DNA from: Candidatus Tectimicrobiota bacterium
Lineage (GTDB): Bacteria > Tectomicrobia > Entotheonellia > Entotheonellales > Entotheonellaceae
Assembly (NCBI GenBank): GCA_026005175.1
Contig: BPKO01000003.1
Span: 1 to 64,000 of the forward strand
DNA: 64,000 nucleotides
Direction of reading: 5' to 3'
Of the stretch, positions 28,139-33,192 are shown in pieces. A program made the translations under genes and the position numbers. The notes beneath the pieces were generated by a model. The model made no database searches and was not told the origin of the DNA. It saw nothing but the letters and a program-made list of their open reading frames with translations. Within the stretch, counting starts at the first letter, position 1. The number at the start of each line of letters is the position of its first letter.

Positions 28139-28666
28139 ATGTGGAGACGTCTGAGCTTCGGTCTGGTGCTGGGACTTCTGGTAGGCACTGCGGGCGGTGT
28201 GGCACCGCTACCGCCGGGGCTGTCAGCCCTGGCGCGCCCCATGCCGATGCCCGACTTTCGCCTGCCCGATCTCAGCGGCAACCCGGTGCAGGCTGCCGAC
28301 TTGCAGGGCAAAGTGGTGCTCATCCGCTTCTGGGCCACCTGGTGACCGACCTGCACCGGCGAGATGCCCTCCGTGCAGAGGGTACACGAGGCGCTGCGTG
28401 GACAAGCCGTGGCAGTGCTTACCATCAGCATTGACGGCGGCGGCCGGCAGGCCGTCCAAGCCTACATGGCCAAACACGGCTTCAGCGTACCCACCCTCAT
28501 CGACAGCGGTATGCGGGTGGCACGGCAATTTGGCGTGCGCGGCGTGCCCACCACCTATGTCGTCGATCGCCGCGGCCGCATCGTGGCCAGCGGCTTCGGA
28601 CCGGTCGACTTTTCCCATCCGGCATTTTGGCAGCTGATCGAGGCGTTGCTGGACCAACCGGATTAG
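28139..28666 (+). CDS. probable selenoprotein: TlpA/ResA-like thioredoxin with in-frame TGA (Sec69)
   Basis: 175 residues if TGA 28343-28345 is read as selenocysteine. N-terminal signal (RRLSFGLVLGLLVGTAGG), then MPDFRLPDLSGNPVQAADLQ and KVVLIRFWATW-U-PTC, followed in the same frame by TGEMPSVQRVHEALRG, VLTISIDGGGRQAVQAYMAK and GVPTTYVVDRRGRIVASGF with the cis-Pro. Family members have WCPxC: the TGA falls exactly on the first, nucleophilic Cys, giving a UxxC site. A stem-loop follows at once. Predicted periplasmic disulfide reductase or oxidoreductase. ATG 28139 has a weak GGGAAG; a TTG six codons earlier is possible. Fourteen bases separate it from a second TGA-containing redox gene. The alternative, a nonsense mutation, is less likely given the position. 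Confidence 0.8.
28343..28378 (+). promoter_or_regulatory. candidate bacterial SECIS element of the TlpA-like gene
   Basis: Directly after the TGA, CTGCAC (28351-28356) pairs perfectly with GTGCAG (28373-28378). Inside, GGC (28358-28360) pairs with GCC (28366-28368) around the loop GAGAT. The apical loop starts with G, 16 bases after the TGA, within the window described for SelB-dependent SECIS elements. Folding done by eye. Confidence 0.6.
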
Positions 28667-28679
28667 AGGAGGAAAGCCC

Positions 28680-29240
28680 GTGCCACGTAAGTGTATGCTA
28701 GGGATGCTTGGCCTGTGTTGCTTGCTGCTGTTGGCAGCCAGCAGCAGCAAGGCGCTGCAAGTGGGCGACCCGGCGCCACCCTTCGCGCTGCCTGCGACCA
28801 CGGCGGACCGGATTGCCCTTGCCGACTTTCTGGGCAAGCAGCCGGTGGTGGTCTTCTTCTTTATCGGCGCCTTTACCAGCCTGTGAACGCAGGAAGCCCT
28901 GGCCTTCCAACTTGATCTTCCCAAGTTCGAGGCCTTGAACGCCCAGGTGCTGGGCGTGAGTGTGGACTTCAACGACGCCAACAAAGCGTTTGCCGAGAAG
29001 CTCGGCCTGACCTACCCGTTGCTCAGCGACGTGCGTCGAGAAATGTCACGTGCTTACGGCGTGCTGTACGACGATCCGGCAATGGCCAACGATCCGCGCA
29101 AGATCCCCCTCTACTTGCGCGCTAAACGGGCCTGGTTCGTCATCGACAAGGAAGGGATCATTCGCTACGCCAAAGTCACGGCTCCGGCAGAGTTCATCCC
29201 CAACGACGAAATCCTGCAGGTCTTGCAGGGGCTAAAATAG
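28680..29240 (+). CDS. probable selenoprotein: AhpC/TSA-type peroxiredoxin with in-frame TGA (Sec69)
   Basis: 186 residues if TGA 28884-28886 is selenocysteine. Signal-like N-terminus (GMLGLCCLLLLAASSSKA), then VGDPAPPFALPATTADRIAL, PVVVFFFIGAFTSL-U-TQEA, and after the TGA in frame LDLPKFEALNAQVLGVSVDF, AFAEKLGLTYPLLSDVRREM and RAWFVIDKEGIIRYAKV. Peroxiredoxins have FTxxCTxEA; the TGA is at the peroxidatic Cys. No resolving Cys follows, so a 1-Cys-type mechanism with an external reductant, possibly the neighbouring TlpA-like protein, is inferred. GTG start at 28680 after GAGGAGGAAAG. Selenoprotein peroxiredoxins are a known family. Confidence 0.8.
28884..28927 (+). promoter_or_regulatory. possible SECIS region of the peroxiredoxin gene
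   Basis: Two stems follow the TGA. GGAAG (28892-28896) pairs with CTTCC (28904-28908) around CCCTGGC, close to the TGA. AACTTG (28909-28914) pairs with CAAGTT (28922-28927) around a 7-base loop starting 28 bases downstream of the TGA. The second has a suitable distance but no G at the loop start. Less convincing than the element in the upstream gene. Confidence 0.35.
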
Positions 29241-29263: not shown

Positions 29264-29295
29264 ACGGGTGCCGGCCCTGGCTGGCCGGCACCCGT
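29264..29295 (+). terminator. strong hairpin after the selenoprotein pair, candidate terminator
   Basis: ACGGGTGCCGGCC (29264-29276) and GGCCGGCACCCGT (29283-29295) form a perfect 13-bp stem with a 6-base loop, 24 bases after the peroxiredoxin stop. There is no T-run, so it may act with other factors or as a processing barrier. Confidence 0.5.
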
Positions 29296-29388
29296 CCGCG
29301 AGCGACCCACACGGGGTGTCGAGTCCGGGAGGCTTTTTACCCCCTGCGTTGGGGTATACTGACAGGGAGACGTGTAAGAGGGCATCCC

Positions 29389-29958
29389 ATGCCGAGCCAG
29401 GGGAAGCGTGTGCTTCTGGTCACTATAGGGGTATGGCTGGCCCTGCTCGCCGGCTTGGCCGGTGCGCAGGAAGGGTTTAGGCAGCAAGACCGCGAGCTGC
29501 TGCTCGAGCTCAACGTGCGGGTCGGCGAGTTCGACAAACGCTTCGAGCAAATCGACAAACGCTTTGAGCAAATCGACAAACGCTTCGAACAAGTCGACAA
29601 GCGCTTTGAGCAAATCGACAAACGCTTTGAGCAAATCGACAAACGCTTCGAACAAGTCGACAAGCGCTTTGAGCAAGTTGATAAACGCTTCGCTGAGCTG
29701 CGCCAGGACATGAATCAGCGCTTCGCCCAGCTCACCCAGTTCCTTTACATTTTGTCAGGGATCTTTACCGCCTTGGTGGTAGCGGTGATCGGCTTTGCAT
29801 ATTGGGATCGGCGTACCATCATCCGCGAGGCCCGCCGTGAGGCGATCGAGTGGATGGAAAAAGAAGGGACGCTGCGGCGGGTGGTCGATACCTTGCGCGA
29901 AGTGGCCCGCGAGGACACCCGCATGGCCGAGGCCCTGCGCCGGGCCGACCTTCTCTGA
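29389..29958 (+). CDS. secreted/membrane coiled-coil protein with DKRFEQI heptad repeats
   Basis: 189 residues. N-terminal signal or anchor (RVLLVTIGVWLALLAGLAGA), a heptad array of eight units based on DKRFEQ(I/V) at residues 49-104, then AELRQDMNQRFAQL continuing the coiled coil. A membrane segment follows (FLYILSGIFTALVVAVIGFAY), then a charged amphipathic tail. The repeats place hydrophobic F and I/V at regular heptad spacing, so a long parallel coiled coil is expected, with both ends near a membrane. Function unknown. A possible -10 box TATACT at 29355-29360 precedes it. Confidence 0.75.
   Translation: MPSQGKRVLLVTIGVWLALLAGLAGAQEGFRQQDRELLLELNVRVGEFDKRFEQIDKRFEQIDKRFEQVDKRFEQIDKRFEQIDKRFEQVDKRFEQVDKRFAELRQDMNQRFAQLTQFLYILSGIFTALVVAVIGFAYWDRRTIIREARREAIEWMEKEGTLRRVVDTLREVAREDTRMAEALRRADLL
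29533..29700 (+). repeat. eight tandem 21-bp units (heptad-coding), including a 63-bp duplication
   Basis: Units of 21 bp encode DKRFEQI, DKRFEQI, DKRFEQV, DKRFEQI, DKRFEQI, DKRFEQV, DKRFEQV and DKRFAEL. Three-unit blocks 29554-29616 and 29617-29679 are almost identical at DNA level, including synonymous choices (TTT/TTC, AAA/AAG), differing mainly at the last codon. This points to recent slippage or unequal exchange. Confidence 0.9.
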
Positions 29959-32196: not shown

Positions 32197-33192
32197 TGGC
32201 ATTCAGCGGCGTCATGGCCGTCGCCGTCCTGCTCGGGCTGGCCCTGGCTCTCTTTCTCTTCCTGCGCTTTGTCCCCCTCGGCCTGTGGATCACCGCCTAC
32301 TTTTCCGGCGTGCCGGTGAGCCTTTTCACCCTCATCGGCATGCGCCTGCGCAAGGTCAACCCGCACGAAGTCATCCGGCCCCTGATCAGCGCTACCAAGG
32401 CCGGCCTGGCACTGGAAATCGACAAGCTGGAAGCGCACTACCTCGCCGGAGGCAACGTGCAACAGGTGGTCAATGCCCTCATTTCGGCAGACAAAGCCAA
32501 CATCGACTTGAGCTTCCAGCGCGCCACGGCCATTGACCTGGCAGGCCGTGACGTGCTGGAAGCGGTAAAAGTGAGCGTCAATCCCAAGGTGATCGAGACC
32601 CCCCAAGGTGGCGGCGGTGGCCAACGACGGCATCCAGATTATTGCCCAGGCGCGGGTGACGGTGCGCGCCAACATCGAGCGCCTGGTGGGCGGTGCCGGT
32701 GAGGAAACCATCCTAGCCCGCGTAGGGGAGGGCATCGTTTCCACCATCGGCTCGTCGCAGACGCACAAAACTGGTGCTGGAAAACCCCGACCGCATCTCC
32801 AAGACCGTGCTCGACAAGGGACTCGACTCGGGGACGGCGTTCGAGATCCTCTCCATCGACATCGCCGACGTAGACGTGGGCAAAAAACATCGGCGCCCAG
32901 CTGCAAATCGACCAAGCCGAGGGGCCCCGACAAGCGCATCGCCCAGGCCAAGGCCGAAGAGCGCCGTGCCATGGCGGTGGCCATGGAACAAGAAATGCGC
33001 GCCCGTGTAGAAGAAATGCGCGCCAAGCTGGTAGAAGCCGAAGCGCAGGTGCCGCTGGCCATTGCCGAGGCATTCCGCAAAGGCCTCATCAGCGTGCGGG
33101 ACTACTACGAACTGCGCAACGTGCAGGCCGACACGCGTCTGCGCGAGTCGCTAGCCCAGGGCGAGGAAGCCGAGCGCGGCGAGGGAGCCTGA
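32196..33192 (+). CDS. floA: flotillin-like SPFH protein FloA (several apparent frameshifts)
   Basis: Overall length matches the ~331-residue FloA family. Readable in order across frames: [100 protein letters not shown] and [20 protein letters not shown]. Breaks occur near 32602 (CCCCCC), 32767 (AAAA), 32882 (AAAAAA) and 32925 (GGGGCCCC where the family needs GGCC). Each is a homopolymer gain, so the gene is probably intact in the cell. FloA scaffolds membrane microdomains and is coupled here to nfeD by TGATG. Confidence 0.88.

Follow-up and report, generated by a model that had tools for sequence, protein, structure and literature searches.

Two adjacent genes in an Entotheonella-family genome are predicted selenoprotein genes, a prediction supported by the Sec machinery of the genome, by the conservation of an in-frame TGA at the same codon in all orthologues, by selB in the genomes that carry the genes and by the RNA structure that follows each UGA. 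The genes lie in a stretch of DNA of 64,000 nucleotides, here called the window, and encode a TlpA-like thiol:disulfide oxidoreductase followed by a peroxiredoxin (Table 1). They probably constitute a two-gene operon for two exported selenoproteins that work together, a 1-Sec peroxiredoxin being recycled by the Sec-containing TlpA-like protein. The arrangement looks like a dedicated selenium-based unit for removing peroxide, since the double-Sec pair recurs, and never with Cys, in the Entotheonella family and in betaproteobacterial genomes.

Table 1. Positions of the gene pair and its associated elements in the window
Feature	Positions	Strand	Details
TlpA/ResA-like thiol:disulfide oxidoreductase gene	28139..28666	+	175 aa, motif FWATW-U-PTC (UxxC)
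TGA, Sec 69 of the TlpA-like protein	28343..28345	+	TGA in 21/21 orthologues
Bacterial SECIS-type hairpin of the TlpA-like gene	28365..28384	+	TGCCCTC-CGTGCA-GAGGGTA, 7 pairs, 6-nt loop
Intergenic gap, 13 bases	28667..28679	+	AGGAGG-type ribosome-binding site immediately 5' of the peroxiredoxin start
Peroxiredoxin gene (AhpC/TSA)	28680..29240	+	186 aa, GTG start, motif FIGAFTSL-U-TQE
TGA, Sec 69 of the peroxiredoxin, peroxidatic position (TxxU)	28884..28886	+	TGA in 22/22 orthologues
Candidate SECIS hairpin of the peroxiredoxin gene	28901..28934	+	GGCCTT..AACTTG-ATCTTCC-CAAGTT.GAGGCC
Strong inverted repeat downstream of the pair	29264..29297 (approximate limits)	+	13 pairs in the fold; no T-run

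The locus and the reading of UGA

Apart from a single internal TGA, each frame is open throughout, from ATG 28139 to TAG 28664-28666 in the TlpA-like gene and from GTG 28680 to TAG 29238-29240 in the peroxiredoxin gene, which has a second in-frame start candidate at ATG 28695. A preliminary description of this DNA had placed both TGAs on catalytic Cys codons, and alignment with Cys homologues agrees, the frames staying intact and family-like beyond them (AhpC-TSA matches). Counted from ATG 28139 and GTG 28680, both Sec residues are indeed number 69. The genes are adjacent and the peroxiredoxin has a good ribosome-binding site, as that description stated, but the gap that it gave as 14 bases measures 13. 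The downstream hairpin that it reported is real (arms GGGTGCCGGCC/GGCCGGCACCC; fold z -2.35) and is possibly a structure at the 3' end of the transcript; the lack of a T-run sets it apart from a canonical intrinsic terminator. Scans for intrinsic terminators and sigma-70 promoters found neither, the Rfam scan and ARAGORN gave no match in the window, and no plasmid match pointed to plasmid carriage of the pair.

Two further features of the window lie downstream. The product of the next gene (29389-29958) is a coiled coil anchored in the membrane, its FEQIDKR/FEQVDKR heptads repeating almost perfectly. At 32200-33190, floA (flotillin-like) is split over two frames whose halves match the NCBIfam model, which reflects either a real frameshift or an assembly indel.

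All four genes of the Sec machinery, selB and selC among them, are present in the genome, which is 77% complete at 3.99 Mb in 14 contigs; the preliminary description had named this search as a check. The selC gene is on the same contig as the pair (C3:375030-375122, 76.5 bits; tRNA-SeC(tca) by ARAGORN), and selA (637.8 bits) and selB (391.5 bits) stand side by side at C3:364895-368187. The selD gene (C9:120631-121554, L015; 378.9 bits) itself encodes Sec, with an in-frame TGA at ACAGU. The TlpA genes of three orthologous loci (L049, L050 and L051) end in TGA after an internal TGA that is read through. UGA is thus an ordinary stop codon in these genes, which rules out its reassignment, and since the same genes use TGA both as a stop and for Sec, context must distinguish the two.

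That context is most clearly visible in the TlpA-like gene. The published bacterial SECIS model specifies a loop of 3-9 nt with G among its first two bases, an upper stem of 4-16 bp, a distance of 16-37 nt from UGA and a minimum free energy of <= -7.5 (PMC13188914). The hairpin of the TlpA-like gene, with the consensus UGCCCUC-CGUGCA-GAGGGYA, satisfies this model in 21/21 orthologues, its 6-nt loop starting 26 nt past UGA and having G as the second base; at none of 103 other codon offsets is the model satisfied as uniformly. All 147 pair cells form in the 21 sequences, and two pairs show changes on both sides (6 cells in six sequences), which 0 of 500 shuffles reached. One such change turns CCC..AGG into CCU..AAG, a Pro wobble change alongside an Arg-to-Lys replacement, and L070 has a further pair changed from C-G to U-A. 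Within the hairpin, the Ser, Val and Gln codons have the same wobble base in every sequence; most other wobble positions of the gene vary. We consider this SECIS element well supported.

The peroxiredoxin hairpin is a good candidate, conserved but statistically weaker. Nearly every orthologue folds into its two-part stem, and it is at +15 from UGA that the gene most exceeds a synonymous-codon null in structure (mean z -1.68). The two elements are graded differently because covariation in the peroxiredoxin hairpin is weak and the stem is shifted or bulged in five sequences. With the closing G-C left open, 17/22 sequences fit the bSECIS model, and 8/103 background offsets do as well.

Conservation of the pair

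Complete pairs were found at 21 loci: that of the window, those of three other Entotheonella-family genomes and 17 in 16 betaproteobacterial/Burkholderiales genomes. Labelling or contamination of metagenome-assembled genomes is a caveat on single loci and not on the whole set. Scanning GTDB-species genomes with peptide patterns that omit the Sec position added pairs from metagenome-assembled genomes labelled Betaproteobacteria. A 22nd peroxiredoxin gene (L074) has only 160 bases between its start and a contig end. The TGA occupies the same codon position in 43/43 genes, 22/22 for the peroxiredoxin and 21/21 for the TlpA-like protein, at identities to the window proteins of 54-67% and 37-56%, respectively; the three same-family genomes have peroxiredoxins of 64-69% identity with TGA, each adjoined by a TlpA-like gene that also has it. 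The recurrence of the same TGA, in intact frames, at 22 divergent loci and across many assemblies rules out sequencing errors and pseudogenes as its source.

Wider sampling extended this pattern. Among 399 genomes of the order of one carrier (G010), there were 14 more peroxiredoxin loci, all with TGA and 13 with an upstream TlpA-like TGA gene. Among 398 genomes spanning the whole phylum, the seed genome alone matched; the pair is therefore both rare and patchily distributed. Cys homologues are far commoner than the Sec forms in most selenoprotein families. With about the eight best candidates per genome considered, no Cys form of the Sec-peroxiredoxin was found at E<=1e-40 in the 399 genomes of the order or at 1e-32 with a profile in the 398 genomes of the phylum.

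The pair co-occurs with selB, which scored above the cut-off in all seven genomes of the first set; these include G004, an Entotheonella-class genome that has selB and is without the Sec-peroxiredoxin. In the larger sample, selB was present in 14/14 new carriers versus 5/20 non-carriers of the same order, with a Fisher p of 8e-6 that is optimistic because the carriers are related.

The two genes are 13-84 bases apart in the 21 pairs. When the flanks of these loci were compared all against all, the pair was the sole unit common to all clades, with no third operon member shared across them. The earlier suggestion of a single redox unit is strengthened by this maintenance of gene order in otherwise differing surroundings. 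No solo Sec-peroxiredoxin was seen among the loci, the TlpA partner being kept in 21/21 where it could be seen. In phylogenetic trees, the Sec-peroxiredoxins all fall into a single group (support 87/90), and the paired TlpA proteins do likewise (78/93), their group also taking in one solo copy. One paralogue of the paired TlpA-Sec gene stands alone (L032; G001 C1:109361-109837), with the same SECIS hairpin and no adjoining peroxiredoxin.

The same genomes contain a second TlpA-like subfamily, in which Sec and Cys are exchanged between close relatives. Its member in the genome of the window is an unpaired gene (L043/L089; G000 C2:284740-285273) whose catalytic codon is TGA (NFWTTW-U-PYC), followed by a strong hairpin; of its close relatives, that in G003 (L039) has Sec, and those in G001 (L040) and G002 (L038) have Cys. 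By contrast with this exchange, the pair seems to be more tightly constrained to Sec, in a sample biased to Sec-decoding lineages.

The two proteins

Read through its UGA, the TlpA-like protein matches Pfam AhpC-TSA (E 4e-27) and Redoxin (8e-24). Its predicted structure (pLDDT 91.6) is closest to TlpA, ResA and CcmG, with best solved matches to 3kcm (Z 22.7), TlpA 1jfu (Z 21.0) and ResA 2h1b (Z 20.7). The UxxC motif is kept in 21/21 orthologues, and its C is the sole Cys past the N-terminal segment in every one. A thioredoxin-like fold (Z about 20), the W-U-x-x-C motif and an N-terminus that appears by inspection to be an export signal identify it as a protein of the TlpA/ResA/CcmG type. Both proteins have an N-terminal hydrophobic segment behind basic residues, read by eye as a signal peptide, and are predicted on this basis to be exported.

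The peroxiredoxin read through its UGA matches Pfam AhpC-TSA (PF00578) at E 9e-34, with 116.5 bits against a cut-off of 26. The mean pLDDT of its model is 80, with low confidence around residues 60-72, the active-site loop; the nearest solved structures are PrxQ/Bcp and 1-Cys AhpE (2ywn/4g2e, 3hjp and AhpE 1xvw). There is no Cys beyond residue 28, in the mature part, in 22/22 orthologues. Hence, there is no resolving Cys, and the protein is of the 1-Sec type and outside the 2-Cys class. The motif PxxxTxxC/U is incomplete: TxxU is present in 22/22, but Pro is replaced by I in 16, V in 4 and T in 2. Cys paralogues in the same genomes (L023-L026) retain this Pro. Besides the Sec position, the Sec-peroxiredoxin retains several Arg and the Thr three residues before Sec (U-3), and it presumably acts as a peroxiredoxin; with the canonical Pro lost, peroxidase activity is not to be taken for granted.

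No NCBIfam model scored above its cut-off on the TlpA-like protein (ResA 90.9 versus 170 bits; WAxxUGC 81.6 versus 300), and none of the NCBIfam peroxiredoxin models, among them PrxU (49.4 versus 270), did so on the Sec-peroxiredoxin. Since no curated model tested recognizes either protein, annotation would cut both genes at UGA.

A possible selenium-based redox cycle

A plausible role for the two proteins is that of reductase and peroxidase in the cell envelope. SelB and tRNA-Sec would decode UGA at each active site, directed by the hairpin just 3' of it. By analogy with the peroxiredoxin family, the Sec of the TxxU motif, the only redox residue of the peroxiredoxin, would attack peroxide and pass from Prx-SeH to Prx-SeOH. 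A peroxiredoxin without its own resolving Cys needs an outside reductant, and the likeliest would be the co-encoded UxxC protein, which is of a reductase type and has the same predicted location. Its Sec (or Cys) may join to the oxidized peroxiredoxin through a mixed bond (Se-Se or Se-S), which the Sec-Cys pair would then resolve, releasing the peroxiredoxin. Re-reduction of the TlpA-like protein would come across the membrane from a protein of the CcdA/DsbD type. The genome does encode one CcdA-like protein that has the expected Cys motifs (C2:215717-216364), but neither a DsbD nor a CcdA gene lies near the pair. We entertain more tentatively a stronger form of this proposal, in which the pair would be an obligately selenium-based and self-contained envelope peroxide reductase, the Sec-Cys TlpA reducing the Pro-less 1-Sec peroxiredoxin directly, possibly via a diselenide, and would have spread between the Entotheonella family and Burkholderiales without ever reverting to Cys.

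The two proteins might instead be true, co-transcribed selenoproteins that are not partners, the TlpA-like protein reducing other envelope targets and the peroxiredoxin being recycled by another thiol. TlpA acts on ScoI and CoxB, and CcmG and ResA act on cytochrome c apoprotein. Such targets are thus known for fold relatives of the window protein (complexes 4txv and 4txo are among the fold matches), and one genome has the solo TlpA-Sec copy described above. We nevertheless think this unlikely, given that the pair is together at 21/21 visible loci while the neighbors differ and that the peroxiredoxin has no resolving residue and was never seen alone.

Chemistry other than peroxide reduction (of selenium, arsenic or organometals, or redox sensing), with the function of the peroxiredoxin altered by loss of the Pro, is harder still to favor. 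The substitution of that Pro in 22/22 sequences would fit such a change, as would the presumed metal-related role of other multi-selenoprotein operons described in a 2026 review (PMC13188914), but several Arg are kept, as are the Sec position and the Thr at U-3, the fold and nearest structures are those of peroxidases, and no metal-resistance genes are common to the flanks of the 21 loci. As for sequencing errors, pseudogenes or a reassigned UGA, the broken floA shows that the assembly has a damaged gene nearby, yet the recurrence of the same TGA across assemblies, the use of UGA as a stop in the same gene family and the presence of selA-selD make such an origin exceedingly improbable.

We return to the preferred reading, that of two cooperating selenoproteins, to compare the pair with known systems. 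Published lists of selenoprotein families already include both Sec-peroxiredoxins (TxxU) and peroxiredoxin-like proteins with UxxC (PMC1088965, PMC2398784, PMC1794560, PMC13188914). The window peroxiredoxin shares the AhpC/TSA fold and the peroxidatic Sec after TxxU with the selenoprotein peroxiredoxin (PF00578; PMC1088965, PMC2398784, PMC13188914) but differs in its predicted export, its lack of a second Cys and the replacement of Pro in PxxxTxxU by I/V/T. The TlpA-like protein shares UxxC in a TlpA/ResA-type domain with the Prx-like 1 thiol:disulfide oxidoreductase (PF00578; PMC2398784, PMC1794560), from which it differs in that it is here always paired with a Sec-peroxiredoxin, the solo paralogue aside. 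An earlier case, Prx with Prx-like 2, likewise has a Sec-peroxiredoxin gene next to another redox selenoprotein gene but concerns a distant, other subfamily on one read with no conservation shown, and a pair of Prx and Prx-like 1 is not listed. The SAO and Tso operons (PMC13188914) also hold several selenoprotein genes in a conserved operon; their protein families are different, their roles presumably metal-related, and neither is the window pair. AhpE of Mycobacterium tuberculosis (1xvw), a 1-Cys enzyme and a close fold match, resembles the window peroxiredoxin in its single catalytic residue and outside reductant but has Cys, is cytosolic and keeps the Pro.

The preliminary description had singled out the pairing as the point to check for novelty, rightly so: each family is known, and the open-licence papers searched contain no description of a conserved dual-Sec pair, of its conservation in two phyla or of a Pro-less Sec-peroxiredoxin subfamily, nor any match for Entotheonella selenoproteins. 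Two probable partner enzymes keep Sec jointly in every genome seen, across two phyla. The question of why selenium is kept can therefore be put to the test with just two genes, which could be transferred to Escherichia coli, a Sec-decoding host.

Extra truncated SelB-like genes occur in Entotheonella chromosomes (G007 C1:1255362-1256483 and 1272102-1272980; G009 C1:969697-986969). A RiPP cluster with SelB homologues has been mentioned for Entotheonella (PMC12858407), and the truncated genes are perhaps these homologues.
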